A DNA stretch of 23,283 nt from a virus, in the IMG/VR virus record IMGVR_UViG_3300035698_004316, positions 1 to 23,283 of that record; one strand, 5' to 3'. The notes beneath the pieces were generated by a model that did not search any database, was not told the origin of the DNA, and saw only the letters and a program-made list of their open reading frames with translations. This document shows, piece after piece, positions 1-19,016 of this stretch. The position numbers and the translations under genes were made by a program. The first letter of the stretch is position 1. The number at the start of each line of letters is the position of its first letter.

Positions 1-84
1 GTTATACTGGGCAGTTATACCGTGCAGGCCTTAGGTAACGTACGAGGTGTAAGCTCCTTACTTCCTTAGACGTGTAGTACATTT

Positions 85-154
85 GGGGGTGAACAGTACA
101 GAGGTGCCCCCAGAGGGAAGGTCGAGGGGGTGGGGGGGTAAACTTTTTTTTTTT
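85..154 (+). other. G-tract region with mutually exclusive hairpins and T11 run
   Basis: GGGGG (85-89) can pair with CCCCC (107-111). The same CCCCC can instead pair with GGGGG (126-130) or GGGGGGG (132-138), which lie just before TAAAC and a run of 11 T (144-154). The second pairing followed by a T run resembles a weak intrinsic terminator, and the first would prevent it, as in an attenuator. The G runs could also form a G-quadruplex. Homopolymers of this length are prone to sequencing error, so exact lengths are uncertain. No function is established. Confidence 0.3.
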
Positions 155-158
155 CATT

Positions 159-197
159 AAAAAGCGCACCCTCATATCCATATTGCGGGGCTTTTTT
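159..197. terminator. Bidirectional intrinsic terminator-like hairpin
   Basis: AAAAAGC (159-165) pairs with GCTTTTT (190-196). CCC (169-171) pairs with GGG (187-189), leaving a three-base bulge and a loop of about 15 bases. Read on the + strand the stem ends in a T6 run (192-197). Read on the - strand it ends in T5 (163-159). Both orientations therefore have the stem-plus-U-tract form of a Rho-independent terminator. The GC part of the stem is short, so efficiency may be moderate. It lies directly in the path of the leftward promoter at 430-401. Confidence 0.5.
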
Positions 198-394
198 CCC
201 ACTATTGCGTGCTAGTACACTAGATGATACCGCTCGTTCCGCGGCCTACTGAGAAGTTACCGGCCAGTTACTAGGAGGTATATGTGTAGTCACACTAGAA
301 GGTCCACAGCCAAACCTTACGGCTACAGCTGCCACCTTAAGATACTGTCAAGTAGACTAGATTTACTCTTTACCCATCTTGACGGCTTGGCCTC
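159..394 (-). ncRNA. Candidate leftward non-coding RNA (about 235 nt)
   Basis: This is an inference from flanking signals. A near-consensus promoter at 430-401 predicts a start near 394 on the - strand, and the terminator-like hairpin at 191-159 predicts the end. Inside the interval the - strand has no convincing coding frame. It has several short stems, for example AAGGT/ACCTT around 299-318 and the inverted repeat CTAGT-AC-ACTAG at 212-223. It matches no RNA family I can recognise. It could instead be the untranslated start of a longer leftward transcript reading through the hairpin. Confidence 0.3.
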
Positions 395-400
395 CCAGTA

Positions 401-430
401 AGTATAACACACGGTTTCCCTATTTGTCAA
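401..430 (-). promoter_or_regulatory. Leftward sigma70-type promoter
   Basis: On the - strand the sequence reads TTGACA (430-425), an 18-base spacer, then TATACT (406-401). The -35 box is a perfect consensus match and the -10 box matches at five of six positions. A TG lies one base before the -10 box, giving an extended -10 element. Predicted transcription starts near 394 and runs away from the structural genes. It is back to back with the rightward promoter at 473-501. Confidence 0.65.
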
Positions 431-472: not shown

Positions 473-501
473 TTGACAACCCTTTAGGTATATGTTAAAC
501 T
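473..501 (+). promoter_or_regulatory. Rightward sigma70-type promoter for the late operon
   Basis: TTGACA (473-478, perfect consensus), a 17-base spacer and TAAACT (496-501, four of six matches) preceded by TG one base upstream (extended -10). The predicted start is near 508, giving a leader of about 120 bases before the terminase small subunit at 629. No other strong promoter was seen in the gene-dense stretch to its right, so it may drive much of the structural operon using host RNA polymerase. Confidence 0.65.
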
Positions 502-563
502 ATACCGGTAGCGATGACATACACAGTCTAGCTGGGAAGCAGTACCCTCACGGAGCTGCAGCA

Positions 564-587
564 TTTGATTCAGGCGGGGGAATCGAA
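564..587 (+). other. Leader hairpin with G-rich loop
   Basis: TTTGATTC (564-571) pairs with GAATCGAA (580-587), eight pairs with one G-T wobble, closing the loop AGGCGGGG (572-579). It lies in the leader between the rightward promoter and the terminase small-subunit start. The purine-rich loop could bind a protein or RNA, or the hairpin could stabilise the transcript. It has no T run and is not a terminator. Confidence 0.3.
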
Positions 588-628
588 TATCTATCAAAGA
601 ACACACACACTTAAGAGATACATTGCCC

Positions 629-1135
629 ATGGCTAGAGGCCGACCTTCCAAATATAAACCTAAATACTGCGCATTACTAGTAGACATGATGAAACAAGGC
701 AAGTCATACCAGCAAGTAGCCGCAGAGATAGGCGTTTCCAAAGTCACCATGTGGCGCTGGAGAGATAAACACCCAGACTTTGACGAGGCTTGCCAATTAG
801 GTTCTGTTCAAAGCTGTGCCTGGTGGGAAAACGAGGCAATGTCAGGTTTACACGATAAAGATAAGCCCAAGCATTGGGCTACTATGATGATGTATACCAT
901 GAAGTGTCGCTTCAAAGACTTCGGCTACCACGATAAGACCGAACAGACCATTGAAGTAACTAATAAAGTAGAAGAGATGTCTAACTCCGATCTTGATAAG
1001 GCCCTAGAAGCATTGACAAGAGAGGAGTCAAAGACCCCTAAACCTACACCTCTAATAAAGACATCAAAAACTGCACCCCCAACAGCAGAAACTACCAAGA
1101 CTACCTCTGAAGACTCTAACAAGGATCTCCACTAA
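629..1135 (+). CDS. terS: Terminase small subunit
   Basis: 168 residues if translation starts at ATG 629. A TTG six bases upstream (623) would add only two residues and is less likely. The protein would recognise the packaging site on viral DNA and hand it to the large terminase subunit. Residues about 25-47 form a helix-turn-helix with the typical phage pattern YQQVAAEIGVSKVTMWRW. The middle region is mixed helical. The last 40 or so residues are a Lys/Thr/Pro-rich, probably disordered tail. It sits first in the operon, three bases before the large subunit, which strongly supports the assignment. The sequence does not show which subfamily it belongs to, or whether packaging is headful or cos-type. 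Confidence 0.85.
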   Translation: MARGRPSKYKPKYCALLVDMMKQGKSYQQVAAEIGVSKVTMWRWRDKHPDFDEACQLGSVQSCAWWENEAMSGLHDKDKPKHWATMMMYTMKCRFKDFGYHDKTEQTIEVTNKVEEMSNSDLDKALEALTREESKTPKPTPLIKTSKTAPPTAETTKTTSEDSNKDLH

Positions 1136-1138
1136 ACA

Positions 1139-2593
1139 ATGGAAAAATTGACTAAAAAGGATAAAATTCAATTAGTTAAGCTTCTCGAAGAGAAGAACAA
1201 AAGAGAAAAAGAGAATTACATAGATACCTTATTCCCTAAAGAAGGACCTCTATCCAGGGATAAGTACGCGAAACATCTTAAATTTTTCGAAGCAGGCAAC
1301 GTATATTCACAAAGAGCCATGATCGCAGCTAACCAAGTAGGCAAATCCCTTACTGTAGGCTACGAGCTAGTTCTTCACGCCACAGGAGAGTATCCTGACT
1401 GGTGGGTAGGCAAACGCTTCCACGGACCCATCGACGCATGGGCTGCAGGGTACAAATCTAACCTAAAAGAAGCTATTCAGGACTACCTTATAGGTAATAT
1501 TAATATGCCAGGTACTGGTTTAATACGTAAGTCCTTGATAGAAAAAGGAAGAATTACACGTAAGCCGGGTGTTACCGATATGGCACAAGACATATACGTA
1601 CCTCACATAAGTGGAGGCCTAAGCAGAATAACACTTAAGTCCTACGATGAGGAAGCAAAAGCTTTCCAAGGTGCACGATTAGACTTCATCTGGTTAGATG
1701 AGGAACCTAAGAACTTTAACATATATACTGAGTGCCTAACACGATTAATCTCCAAAGAAGGTTCAATGGCATGTTCCTTCACACCTTTGAGTGGTCTATC
1801 AGACGTAGTATTAAGCTTTTTAGACTCAGGCAGAGTCCCAGACGGCGGTTTTGGTGAATGCAACAAGAAGTTCACCGTAAACATCCTCTGGGAAGATGTA
1901 CCTCATCTATCAGAGCAACGCAAGGCAGAGCTCATAGCCTCCTTCCCTGTCCACGAGAGAGACGCACGTTCAAAAGGTATACCAGCCTTAGGTTCAGGAG
2001 CGATCTATCCTCTGAGCGAAGATGACTACGTTGTAGACCCCTTCGGCATACCAGAACACTGGCCTAAGGTCTTCGGGATGGATGTAGGTTGGAACAGAAC
2101 AGCTGTCGTATGGGCAGCTATAGATTTAGACACAGATACAGTATACCTGTATTCAGAGCATTACAGAGGTAACGCAGAGCCTGTTATACACACTGAGGCA
2201 GTAAAAAGCCGAGGCCCTTGGATAAGAGGCGTAATAGACCCGGCAGCACACGGTAGAAACCAAGCTGACGGTAAATGCCTATTCGAGATATACGAAGGCT
2301 ACGGCTTAGAGATATCACCTGCAGATAACGCAGTAGAGTCTGGTATATACAACGTTTGGCAGCGTTTGAGCTCAGGTAGACTTAAAGTCTTCTCAAGCCT
2401 ATCTAACTGGTTATCTGAGAGCAGAGTATACAGAAGAGACGGAAGAGGCAAAGTGGTTAAGAAACATGACCATTTAATGGACGCCACCAGATACCTAATA
2501 CAATCAGGCTTACCAGAAGCTACTACACAGTCTCCTCATGAAGATGGCGATAGACAAGAATATTTCGAAACGAACGATATCACAGGATACTAG
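1139..2593 (+). CDS. terL: Terminase large subunit (ATPase and nuclease)
   Basis: 484 residues, a normal length for a large terminase. This is the motor that pumps DNA into the prohead and cuts it. The N-terminal ATPase has the Walker A-type loop AANQVGKS (63-70), Walker B IWLDEE (184-189) with the catalytic Glu after the Asp, and a coupling motif SFTPLSG (213-219). The C-terminal RNase H-fold nuclease has acidic residues at GMDVGW (D315), VIDPA (D367) and HDHLMDATRY (D444/D448). AAGGA at 1121-1125 lies 13 bases before the ATG, a rather long spacing. All key residues are present, so the gene looks intact. It is followed after eight bases by the portal gene. Confidence 0.95.
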   Translation: MEKLTKKDKIQLVKLLEEKNKREKENYIDTLFPKEGPLSRDKYAKHLKFFEAGNVYSQRAMIAANQVGKSLTVGYELVLHATGEYPDWWVGKRFHGPIDAWAAGYKSNLKEAIQDYLIGNINMPGTGLIRKSLIEKGRITRKPGVTDMAQDIYVPHISGGLSRITLKSYDEEAKAFQGARLDFIWLDEEPKNFNIYTECLTRLISKEGSMACSFTPLSGLSDVVLSFLDSGRVPDGGFGECNKKFTVNILWEDVPHLSEQRKAELIASFPVHERDARSKGIPALGSGAIYPLSEDDYVVDPFGIPEHWPKVFGMDVGWNRTAVVWAAIDLDTDTVYLYSEHYRGNAEPVIHTEAVKSRGPWIRGVIDPAAHGRNQADGKCLFEIYEGYGLEISPADNAVESGIYNVWQRLSSGRLKVFSSLSNWLSESRVYRRDGRGKVVKKHDHLMDATRYLIQSGLPEATTQSPHEDGDRQEYFETNDITGY

Positions 2594-2601
2594 TTTTAAA
2601 G

Positions 2602-4596
2602 ATGAAGAAAATAGACAATTTAGAAATGCTCCTTGGTAGGCCCAATATAGCAGAAGACTTAGAAGAATCTCACTTAGCTGAGATTTCCTCACAAGTAATA
2701 TCCGAACTTCAAGACGACCAAGAGAGTCGTATGGAATGGGAAGTACGGGTAGATAAAGCCATGGACTTAGCTAAGCTCAAGCCTGAAAAGAAAAGCTACC
2801 CTTGGCCCAACGCAGCTAGCATCAAATATCCAATTATAACTAATGCATCTATTCAGTTTGCATCTAGAACGTATCCTGAAGTAGTCAGGAATGGTCAAGT
2901 AGTTAAAGTACGTACCTTCGGATCAGATCCAGAAGAAGCTAAGATTCAAAGAGCTAAGCGCGTAGGTAAACATATGTCGTACCAACTTCTCTTCGAAGAC
3001 GACAAATGGGAAAAGGATCTCGATAAGCTACTGCACCTATACTCAGTTATAGGGACAGCCTTTAAGAAGACTTGGTTTGACCCAGTCAGAGGCAAGAACA
3101 GAAGTGAACTTCTTCTCCATGATGAACTAGTTGTTAACGACAACATCAGATCATTAGGCGAAGCAAGAAGAGTAACACACTTAATCACAACACACACTAA
3201 CTACATACTAGAGAACATGCGTTCAGGTTTATTTAATGAGATGGAACTCTCTGAATTAAGGTCTAGCGAAGGGCATAACCAGGAAGCAGGCGAACACACT
3301 TTAATAGAGCAACACAGATACTTAGACTTAGACGACGACGGCTACGAAGAGCCTTATATCGTCACAGTACACGAGGCCAGCTGCAAAGTACTACGAATCG
3401 TTCCTAGGTTCTCAAGAGAAGACATAGAGTACAATAATAAAGGCGAAGTCATTCGTATAGAACCTCAACAGTTCTTTACAGATTTCCATTTTCTACCTTC
3501 ACCAGACGGCAAGTACCACAGTATAGGTTACGGCCTATTAATGCTTCCTTTGAATGAAACTATTAATACTATTTTAAACCAACTTATCGATGCAGGAACA
3601 TTAGCTAACTTACAAGGCGGGTTTCTAGGTAAAGGACTAAGAATTAAAGGCGGCGAGATGAAAATGCGCCCAGGCCAATGGAAGAAGCTCGATTCAGCGT
3701 CAGGTACAGACATCTCTAAGAACATTGTACCGCTATCCTACAAAGAACCCTCTCAAGTACTGTTTCAGCTCTTAGGGGTCCTTATAGAGGCCTCTAGAGA
3801 GCTTTCATCTAACACAGAAGCACTAGCAGGTACAGCAGAAGGTCAAAACACACCTGCTACAACCATGCTAGCCTTAGTTGAGCAAGGTTTAAAGGTAGCA
3901 TCAGCTATTCAGAGAAGATTACATCTATCACTGAGAAGCGAATATCAAAAGCTATATAAACTAAACCAATTATTTCTAGATCCAGCAGAATACCTCAAAG
4001 TATTAGACGATCCTACCTTAGAAGGATTAATAGAAGTAGACGCAGCAGGGAACACTATAATCCTAGATTACGAGGGAGATTCAGCAGACATTATACCTGT
4101 TTCAGATCCTAACATGTCATCAGACACTCAAAGAATAATTAAATCACAAGCTCTGATGCAAATCATGCAGCATCCTGCAATAGACGACAGAGAAGTGCTA
4201 AGACAGCATTTAGATGCGTTACAAGCAGACGGAGTAGAAAGATTACTACCGCCACCACAACCTTCACCACCGGATCCAAAGATGATAGAGCTACAATCTC
4301 AATTAAACATGAGAGGAGCAGATCTAGAACTGAGAGAAAGAGAATTAGACATAAAACAAGCTGAAGCAGAAGCTAAGATTATAAAAAGTAGAGCAGATGC
4401 TACTAAATCTATAGCAATCGCAGAAGCAGTAGAACCAGGCCAACAATTAGAGCAATACAAAGCCCAAGTATCAGCTCTAGAGAGTTCAATAAAATTAGAA
4501 GCAGAAAACAAGAAAGAGGCAAATAGAAATGAAGAAGCAAGAGCTAAAGGATTGGAACAAATCGCGAGTGACCCAGGAACTGTTCAAGGAACTTAA
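2602..4596 (+). CDS. Portal protein (podovirus/P22-type)
   Basis: 664 residues, close to the 725 of P22 gp1 and larger than typical siphovirus portals. It would form the dodecameric ring at one capsid vertex through which DNA enters and leaves. The segment YPWPNAASIKYPIITNASIQ (about 66-85), with 'SRTYPEVV' after it, matches a portal pattern common in podoviruses. The C-terminal 100 or so residues, from about 560, begin with a proline run and continue as a long charged coiled coil. In P22 the C-terminus forms a helical barrel, and something similar is plausible here. The 3' end overlaps the next gene by 68 bases in another frame. Position after the terminase supports the call. Confidence 0.9.
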   Translation: MKKIDNLEMLLGRPNIAEDLEESHLAEISSQVISELQDDQESRMEWEVRVDKAMDLAKLKPEKKSYPWPNAASIKYPIITNASIQFASRTYPEVVRNGQVVKVRTFGSDPEEAKIQRAKRVGKHMSYQLLFEDDKWEKDLDKLLHLYSVIGTAFKKTWFDPVRGKNRSELLLHDELVVNDNIRSLGEARRVTHLITTHTNYILENMRSGLFNEMELSELRSSEGHNQEAGEHTLIEQHRYLDLDDDGYEEPYIVTVHEASCKVLRIVPRFSREDIEYNNKGEVIRIEPQQFFTDFHFLPSPDGKYHSIGYGLLMLPLNETINTILNQLIDAGTLANLQGGFLGKGLRIKGGEMKMRPGQWKKLDSASGTDISKNIVPLSYKEPSQVLFQLLGVLIEASRELSSNTEALAGTAEGQNTPATTMLALVEQGLKVASAIQRRLHLSLRSEYQKLYKLNQLFLDPAEYLKVLDDPTLEGLIEVDAAGNTIILDYEGDSADIIPVSDPNMSSDTQRIIKSQALMQIMQHPAIDDREVLRQHLDALQADGVERLLPPPQPSPPDPKMIELQSQLNMRGADLELRERELDIKQAEAEAKIIKSRADATKSIAIAEAVEPGQQLEQYKAQVSALESSIKLEAENKKEANRNEEARAKGLEQIASDPGTVQGT

Positions 4597-16565: not shown

Positions 16566-17519
16566 ATGGCAACATCAGGATCAACAGACTTTAATCAAAC
16601 TAAAAGTGACATCATAAAGGACGCATTCATACTATGCGGTATATATGGTGAACAGGAATCAATATCAGGAGGAGATTCACAATTAGCCTCTAGATTGCTA
16701 AACGGGATGATAAAAGCGTGGCAAGGTAAAGGGGCCAACTTATGGACCCAAACAGAAGGTACAATATTCTTCGTAGAAGGTCAAGCTAAATATGACCTAA
16801 ACGCCACTACAGGCGACCAAGGAGCTCAAGAAAGTGAGATTGTAGAGACTACTACCTCAGCAGCAGCAGCGGCGGCCGCCAGTACAGTAACATGTACTAC
16901 AGTAACCGGAATGACTGCAGGCGACGTTATAGGTGTAGTATTAGATGACGGCACTATAGACTGGGACACAATCGACTCAATCGACACAGGTACTCTAATC
17001 GTAACACTAACAGGAACATTAACTAGTGCAGCAGCTTCAGGTAATAACGTATATAACTATACAAATCAAATAGATAGACCTCAAGAGATCACTGACGCCA
17101 GATTAAGATGTGGAGTAAGTACCAACGCTTCAGATAGATTAATGACTAGAATATCTAGAGAGGAGTACTTCAGACTACCTGATAAGACTCTTCGAGGCAA
17201 GCCTATCATGTACTACTACGATAGACAACACACTACAGGTCAAGTATATGTATGGCCTACGCCAGACACTGTAGACGAAAGATTAAAGATTACATACACG
17301 AGAACTGTAGAAGACTTCGACGCATCCTCAGATAACCCGGATTTCTCTCCAGAATGGATAGAAGCCATAAAATACCAGTTAGCAGTCCGGATAGCACCAG
17401 CTTTCGGGAAAGACGCTAAATTACAATCACTTCTGCCATTAGCCTCTATTATGCTAGAAAACATATTAGATTGGGATAATGAGCACGTATCGCTTGACAT
17501 TGGCCCGGATTTCAGGTAG
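16566..17519 (+). CDS. P22 gp4-like head-tail adaptor (head completion protein)
   Basis: 317 residues, about twice P22 gp4 (166). It would bind below the portal after packaging, hold the DNA in and join the tail. The N-terminal helices DIIKDAFILCGIYGEQESIS and the 'LNGMIKAWQGKGANLWTQ' block (about 48-65) match the gp4 pattern. It ends with a segment of Tyr/Trp-rich strands and helices ('ISREEYFRLPDKTLRGKP', 'WPEAIK'-like helix). An Ala/Thr/Asp-rich insertion at about 95-175, including a run of seven alanines, adds a probable beta domain absent from P22 gp4. The next gene is gp10-like, giving the P22 order 4-10. Confidence 0.8.
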   Translation: MATSGSTDFNQTKSDIIKDAFILCGIYGEQESISGGDSQLASRLLNGMIKAWQGKGANLWTQTEGTIFFVEGQAKYDLNATTGDQGAQESEIVETTTSAAAAAAASTVTCTTVTGMTAGDVIGVVLDDGTIDWDTIDSIDTGTLIVTLTGTLTSAAASGNNVYNYTNQIDRPQEITDARLRCGVSTNASDRLMTRISREEYFRLPDKTLRGKPIMYYYDRQHTTGQVYVWPTPDTVDERLKITYTRTVEDFDASSDNPDFSPEWIEAIKYQLAVRIAPAFGKDAKLQSLLPLASIMLENILDWDNEHVSLDIGPDFR

Positions 17520-17552
17520 AATGTTAGGTAGTTTAAACGGAACGCAACCATA

Positions 17553-19016
17553 ATGCCTGTATTACCTCTAAATGGAGGCTTCTATACCACCCGATCAGAA
17601 TCTCAGTCAAAACAAGAGACTATCAACTGGTATCCAGAAGAAGACCCTTCAGACGTAGAAAGAAACCTCATATTATTACCTACCCCAGGGTTAACACTCT
17701 TTTCCACTCCAGATGGCTCTGGGAGTACCTGCAGAGGTATGTTAGAGCATAAAGGAGTCGGTTACGTAGTAGTTGATGCCGGTGTATATACAATCACTAC
17801 AGCTGGTACTGCAGCGTCTATAGCAACCTTAACAACCTCAACAGGGACAGTTAATTGGGCCGCTACTAATGACGAATTGGTACTTGTAGATGGAACCAAG
17901 AAATACAGCTATAAAGTGTCTACTACAACCTGGTCAGAGATCACTGACGCAGACTCTCCTGCAGCCCCTACTCAAGTAGTAGCCCAAGACGGCTACACAT
18001 TAATGCCCACCCCTAACTCAAGACAATTCCAGTTCTCATCCATTAACGACGCAACGAGCTGGAGAGCTACTGATCTAGCCTCAGCTGAATACGCTGAAGA
18101 TAACATCGTAACGATGTATTCCAGTTTCGATCAGATGTGGATATTCTGCGATAAGACTACCGAAGTATGGTACAACTCAGGGGCTATATTTCCTTGGACA
18201 CCAGTACCTAACGGAGTCTTAGAGATGGGCTGTGCAGCAGCTGAATCAGTAGCCGAAGCAGATAATGCTTTATTCTGGTTAGGGCAAGACAGGTACGGAG
18301 ACGGCGTAATATGCCAATCTGAAGGCTTTAACTACAAGATAGTATCTAATAGAGGTATTAATAACCAAATTAGAACGTACGACTCCATAAGTGACGCTTT
18401 CGCATACGCCTACAGACAAGAAGGTCACACCTTCTACGTCATAACTTTCCCTAATACTGAAACCATTGACGGTATCGTCAAAGGGGTAACCTGGGTATAC
18501 GATACAACTACAGGACAATGGCATGAAAGACAATCTACAGACACTACAAGGATCGTTCAACCTGCATATACTAGACACAGAAGCCAATTCTACATGTTAT
18601 TAGGCGGAAAAGGCATCGTAGGAGACTTCCAATCAGGAAAGCTATACGAACTTGACTTAGAAAAGTACACAGATAACGGTGAGCCCATTAAAAGAAAAAG
18701 AGTTACTGAGACGTATAACCAAGAAGGTAGGCTGTTCAGTACATATAACTTAGAGATACAAATGGACACAGGCATCGGCTTAGTGTCAGGACAAGGAAGT
18801 GACCCACTGTTCGGTATTCGTTACTCCAAAGATGCAGGTCGAACTTGGAGTGAACAGAAATTCTTATCTCCAGGTAAACTAGGTGAATATGATAAGAGGC
18901 CTTTATTGACTAGACTCGGCTCGGGTCGTAACCTCACTATTGAGGTTGAGGCTACAGACCCTGTGCCGTGGGTACTTTTGGGAGCCCGTGCGGATATCGA
19001 AGGGTCGGCTGATTAA
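17553..19016 (+). CDS. P22 gp10-like tail hub (packaged DNA stabilisation protein)
   Basis: 487 residues, close to P22 gp10 (472). It forms the hub under the gp4 ring and helps keep packaged DNA inside. Strong family signals are the start PVLPLNGGFYTTRSESQSKQ followed by ETINWYPE, the block NALFWLGQDRYGDGVI, then DAFAYAYRQEGHTFYVITFP, and VTWVYDTTTGQWHERQS. The repeated strand pattern fits the beta-propeller-like hub fold. Its stop overlaps the next ATG (TAATG). Together with the upstream gp4-like gene this is the clearest evidence that the tail is P22-like. Confidence 0.9.
   Translation: MPVLPLNGGFYTTRSESQSKQETINWYPEEDPSDVERNLILLPTPGLTLFSTPDGSGSTCRGMLEHKGVGYVVVDAGVYTITTAGTAASIATLTTSTGTVNWAATNDELVLVDGTKKYSYKVSTTTWSEITDADSPAAPTQVVAQDGYTLMPTPNSRQFQFSSINDATSWRATDLASAEYAEDNIVTMYSSFDQMWIFCDKTTEVWYNSGAIFPWTPVPNGVLEMGCAAAESVAEADNALFWLGQDRYGDGVICQSEGFNYKIVSNRGINNQIRTYDSISDAFAYAYRQEGHTFYVITFPNTETIDGIVKGVTWVYDTTTGQWHERQSTDTTRIVQPAYTRHRSQFYMLLGGKGIVGDFQSGKLYELDLEKYTDNGEPIKRKRVTETYNQEGRLFSTYNLEIQMDTGIGLVSGQGSDPLFGIRYSKDAGRTWSEQKFLSPGKLGEYDKRPLLTRLGSGRNLTIEVEATDPVPWVLLGARADIEGSAD

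Follow-up and report, generated by a model that had tools for sequence, protein, structure and literature searches.

The window examined here, meaning the whole stretch of DNA that was analysed, is a complete IMG/VR virus record of 23,283 bp that stops at position 1. Positions 1-622 are non-coding, after which all genes run rightward, beginning with the terminase small subunit (TerS), TerL and the portal and continuing with capsid and tail genes. The source is an unclassified tailed phage with podovirus-like gene content. The features of the left end were as follows.

1-26, plus strand: tandem GTTATACTGGGCA / GTTATACCGTGCA at the edge of the record, weakly resembling (A)CTATACT(A)GGGGGG of loci L087 and L124
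1-394, minus strand: visible part of a putative leftward untranslated RNA, which would run off the record at position 1
126-145, plus strand: G-tract element GGGGGTGGGGGGGTAAACTT, counterpart of the single-copy GGGGGTGGGGGGAAAACTT of a related clade
145-155, plus strand: T homopolymer directly 3' of the G-tract element
159-197, no strand assigned: weak imperfect stem with T-runs on both strands
401-430, minus strand: sigma-70-type promoter, TTGACA-N18-TATACT, with a TG extended -10 and a predicted start near 394
431-472, no strand assigned: A+T-rich spacer separating the two -35 boxes, with possible UP elements for both promoters
473-501, plus strand: sigma-70-type promoter, TTGACA-N17-TAAACT, with TG before the -10, serving the TerS/TerL/portal operon
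623-1135, plus strand: TerS (ATG at 629), first gene of the rightward operon
1139-2593, plus strand: TerL, rightward operon
2602-4596, plus strand: portal, rightward operon

Weight-matrix scoring identified the two sigma-70-type promoters as the two best in the window. The leftward promoter, with TTGACA at 430-425, an 18-nt spacer and TATACT at 406-401, had been described in the original prediction as the best in the window, with an extended -10; the boxes are exactly as described, and the score of 14.86 was the highest on either strand. It exceeded the maxima of all 60 random windows drawn from a second-order Markov model (median 11.75, largest 14.35) and was attained in none of 400 simulated 622-nt stretches. 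The proposed divergence from the late operon was borne out as well, since the promoter stands back to back, with 42 bp between, with the rightward promoter of the TerS operon (score 14.24). The third-best promoter-like site in the window, TTGACA-N17-TAGAAT at 17494-17522 on the plus strand, lies at the end of an ORF (16566-17519) and just ahead of another (17553-19016). Judged from its sequence, the leftward promoter is very likely active. As part of the overall reading developed below, the region is tentatively regarded as a divergent control region, with the late (rightward) arm on one side and a leftward arm, past the contig edge, on the other.

Host RNA polymerase would initiate leftward near 394, from where only 394 nt separate the start from the edge of the record. 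The sole leftward ORF in this interval (2-202, 66 aa) was rejected as a leader peptide or gene, its first start having no ribosome-binding site and its product no PHROG match. The promoter thus has no gene in front of it within the window, as had been claimed, which holds for these 394 nt only; the missing leftward gene is a truncation effect, because the record ends 394 nt past the start site. The leftward RNA had further been proposed to end after about 235 nt at a bidirectional terminator. A stem with T-runs on both strands does exist at 159-197, but it is weak (-5.6 kcal/mol leftward and -6.4 kcal/mol rightward), folded no better than shuffled sequences in the leftward direction (z -0.03; rightward, z -1.36) and was absent from the output of a terminator scan. 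It occupies the place of a CGTAA...TACG block conserved in relatives, to which its sequence is dissimilar, and its T-runs are not conserved there.

The predicted RNA of 240 nt folded no better than shuffles (z -0.54), and a structured leftward RNA was rejected on this overall comparison; a local hairpin at approximately 281-340 on the minus strand reached z -3.1 as the best among about 100 sub-windows tested. Covariance models gave no match of the RNA to any Rfam family, phi29 pRNA included. The packaging-type RNA suggested earlier shares with phi29 pRNA the position of a small non-coding RNA gene beside packaging genes, but differs in that TerS and TerL are canonical here, and with no pRNA match a phi29-type pRNA was rejected. 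A discrete regulatory or antisense RNA of about 200-240 nt, starting at 394 and ending at the stem, would account for a very strong promoter without a gene in front, for the recurrence of such promoters in relatives and for the local hairpin; we consider it unlikely, given the weak, unconserved terminator, the unremarkable overall fold, the lack of an Rfam match or of any sequence relative of the RNA, and the lack of a consensus RNA fold in the block that relatives conserve (see below).

Searches with positions 1-640 found no DNA-level relatives among phages, among TerL-related loci or by promoter pattern, and loci were therefore collected by protein and alignment searches: through TerL, through a portal alignment against virus and genome contigs, and through a protein search in named phages. 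As single-protein queries, neither TerS nor portal returned any loci, and a TerS alignment had no conserved stretch, whereas the portal alignment worked as a query. In the resulting phage family, strong sigma-70-type promoters occurred at 0.103 per kb upstream of TerL versus 0.013 per kb downstream. When all strong sites were surveyed, a back-to-back pair was seen to recur, with the rightward promoter followed by a gene and the leftward one gene-less for at least 400 nt. This gene-less leftward layout was found in the window (394 nt visible), in L054, L121, L126, L137, L144 and L151, at further G-tract loci and in Alcaligenes phage QDWS535. Of the signals on which the original prediction was built, the gene-less leftward promoter therefore recurs in relatives, in keeping with an untranslated leftward RNA, whereas the T-runs of the stem do not.

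Eight relatives had sufficient sequence to the left; in seven of them the first leftward gene (counting genes of at least 100 aa) begins 822-1145 nt past the -35, and the interval usually contains no leftward promoter of equal strength. In QDWS535 (OK172329), a consensus leftward promoter, TTGACA-N17-TATAAT, occupies 48,604-48,576; the G-tract lies at 48,251, and the first gene of the left arm at 47,598-46,885. The first left-arm proteins of four relatives matched no PHROG family. The transcript of the relatives would thus reach leftward genes after 0.8-1.1 kb, which, together with the weak terminator and unremarkable fold, argues against the finished RNA of about 235 nt originally proposed. 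Weak terminator-like hairpins inside the leader of some relatives count against this reading; L126 and L146 have none. On the sequence features of window and relatives, we lean towards the leftward RNA being a leader and not a discrete small RNA. It would be the beginning of a long untranslated left-arm leader that crosses the G-tract at 126-145. In a portal tree the window falls outside the clade that carries the G-tract, near L085 and L107, and in its relative L087 the left-arm promoter lies on the opposite side of the G-tracts and has a leader of 28 nt.

Several other features were observed at the collected loci. L101 carries four strong tandem leftward promoters within 578-1381 on the minus strand, 71-104 nt apart (-35 at 1132, 1206, 1310 and 1381), and another at 578. 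In L054, a TerS/portal relative, a 154-aa ORF resembling a small sigma factor (498-962, plus strand) has its own consensus promoter at 310-338, and the gene-less leftward promoter at 1154-1126 is antisense to this ORF. The contig end of L054 (1-62) is a perfect 62-nt inverted repeat with a CTTGACA box on both strands, either an assembly snap-back or a terminal hairpin. The late-operon leaders of some relatives contain a covarying CUC/AGA hairpin of two helices round a 3x3 internal loop (plus strand; L040 3343-3410, L044 3458-3535, L124 2587-2866 and L136 472-555). A strict search retrieved five loci only (L040, L044, L046, L124 and L136), Rfam gave no match in L040, L044, L124 and L136, and the hairpin was absent from the window; it is a candidate new structured leader RNA.

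In L121, L126, L144 and L151 the leftward RNAs enter C-tracts (AAGTTTTCCCCCCACCCCC), and that of the window would enter AAGTTTACCCCCCCACCCCC. On the plus strand this is the G-tract element, common to the window and a distant clade that includes QDWS535, and expected by chance 0.01 times per window. Scanning IMG/VR for GGGGGNGGGGGGNAAACTT, with promoters disregarded, returned 20 loci, 14 of which had the phage layout (a few being near-copies of each other). Eleven of these 14 had a leftward promoter scoring at least 12 at 276-527 nt from the G-tract, against an expectation of 0.01 per interval, and the element was single-copy in each of the seven genomes in which the pattern found it. The window shows the layout of the QDWS535-like clade, with GGGGGTGGGGGG plus AAACTT in single copy and the divergent promoter pair approximately 300-630 nt to the right; its spacings (leftward -35 at +305, rightward at +348 from the G-tract) fall within the span seen in relatives. 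Literature searches retrieved no paper about QDWS535 or about a G-tract element of this kind. A separate motif, AGATACTATACT(A)GGGGGG, is shared between genes in the L087 clade (L087 ~2950-2974, L124 ~2077-2094 and L136 ~116-140, the last as AGATACTATACATAGGGGGGG), and the first bases of the window, GTTATACTGGG, resemble it.

To the right of the G-tract the relatives share a block of approximately 75 bp (CGTAA..CA...CTAC..TTTT.ATAATTTTT) with a mean pairwise identity of 50%. Because it has no consensus RNA fold on either strand at this identity, the block looks like a DNA site. The CGTAA-N-CTACG-TTTTT block is missing from the window, where a profile match covers 124-148 only (E 0.24), and this absence counts against extending a leader and origin role to the window. 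A sequence-specific conserved block adjoining TerS and TerL could also be a cos/pac site, recognised or cut by terminase immediately upstream of the terminase genes, with incidental promoters and a contig end that is the genome end. Contig ends do cluster strongly immediately to the left of the G-tract: 8 of about 20 element-bearing contigs, the window included, stop 34-125 nt to its left. These distances vary and all are shorter than one typical read, and therefore sequencing drop-out at the G-tract fits better than a fixed genome end. Moreover, contigs L126, L207, L208, L213 and L216 run straight through, and a cos/pac site would leave the A+T-rich leader and the promoter unexplained. We regard a cos/pac site as improbable; the contig edge as a physical genome end is disfavoured, and the left edge of the window is probably an assembly edge.

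Composition at the leader was origin-like in the related clade. The minimum of cumulative GC skew lay 0.13-1.8 kb from the G-tract in all seven genomes, each complete or long, which would place the leader at the skew minimum. This signature is suggestive and not proof, because skew can reflect the direction of the genes, which also diverge here, instead of replication; the window offers one arm only. The AT-richest 100 nt of the genome lay between the G-tract and the promoters in five of the seven, ranking second in G016 and fourth in G019. Over its first 80 nt, the leftward RNA was 71-100% A+T in 16 relatives versus 53% in the window, which thus has no A+T-rich unwinding element directly downstream of its promoter. 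By its sequence signals, the window does have a strong promoter predicted to give a non-coding intergenic transcript, as at transcription-activated phage origins.

Alternatively, the region could hold an ordinary left-arm promoter whose long leader plays no part in an origin, the C-rich RNA over the G-tract serving Rho-dependent attenuation or antitermination of the left arm. This would suit the first left-arm genes, which lie about 1 kb downstream and have no further strong promoter, and an RNA that reads AAGUUUUCCCCCCACCCCC over the G-tract. It is a doubtful explanation, as it does not account for the coincidence of the genome's AT-richest site and GC-skew minimum with the leader, and the conserved block is a fixed sequence, unlike a loose C-rich rut-like stretch. 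In the reading that we prefer, transcription in the related clade through the first ~80 nt, A+T-rich and usually extremely so, and the G-tract probably opens a replication origin and may also prime it.

In mitochondria, the LSP-CSB II region has divergent promoters, one of which fires at a GGGGGNGGGGGG-type G-tract close to the start of replication. The phage arrangement differs in strand, the RNA of the window being C-rich over the tract; for this reason a CSB II-type RNA-DNA G-quadruplex is not expected here. The C-rich sense also counts against an opened origin, as R-loops are most favoured by G-rich RNA. In bacteriophage T4, oriF and oriG each consist of a promoter and an A+T-rich unwinding element at which R-loops form (PMC3016281). 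The related clade resembles oriF in that the genome's most A+T-rich stretch begins immediately after the promoter, but the promoter matches the sigma-70 consensus whereas that of T4 is a MotA middle promoter, the G-tract lies ~350 nt further on, and the window itself has no A+T-rich element. In the lactococcal Ceduovirus c2, the origin separates divergently oriented early and late blocks and gives rise to the non-coding transcript PE1-T (PMC7150918). The present arrangement resembles it in having an intergenic non-coding region separating such blocks, a strong promoter that would give an RNA without an ORF or ribosome-binding site, and putative origin variants that differ in sequence between groups. 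There is no sequence relationship to c2, the present element being a G-tract joined by an A+T-rich leader in the relatives of the window; replication activity is only putative here, and a second downstream early promoter is weak or absent in the relatives. By analogy, oriF/oriG and the c2 origin serve as working precedents for a transcript-opened origin.

Taken as a whole, a divergent control region with a long leftward leader that opens an origin in the related clade is a plausible explanation that we put forward tentatively. On sequence grounds, the leader region probably acts as an origin in the related clade. That it does so in the window is possible and considerably less certain: the origin step is weakest there because the A+T-rich block is missing, and the transfer of function rests on the shared G-tract, the divergent promoter pair and their spacing, since the portal tree sets the window outside the clade.

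A family of unclassified aquatic tailed phages might use a previously undescribed kind of origin, in which back-to-back sigma-70 promoters send a leftward non-coding leader through an A+T-rich stretch into a single-copy GGGGGTGGGGGGAAAACTT and a 75-bp block, the window being a stripped-down version. QDWS535 is a cultured carrier of the G-tract element, and the idea is therefore directly testable. An isolated promoter thereby becomes a testable prediction: a single-copy G-tract together with a gene-less strong promoter may mark the start of replication in a wide group of uncultured aquatic phages.
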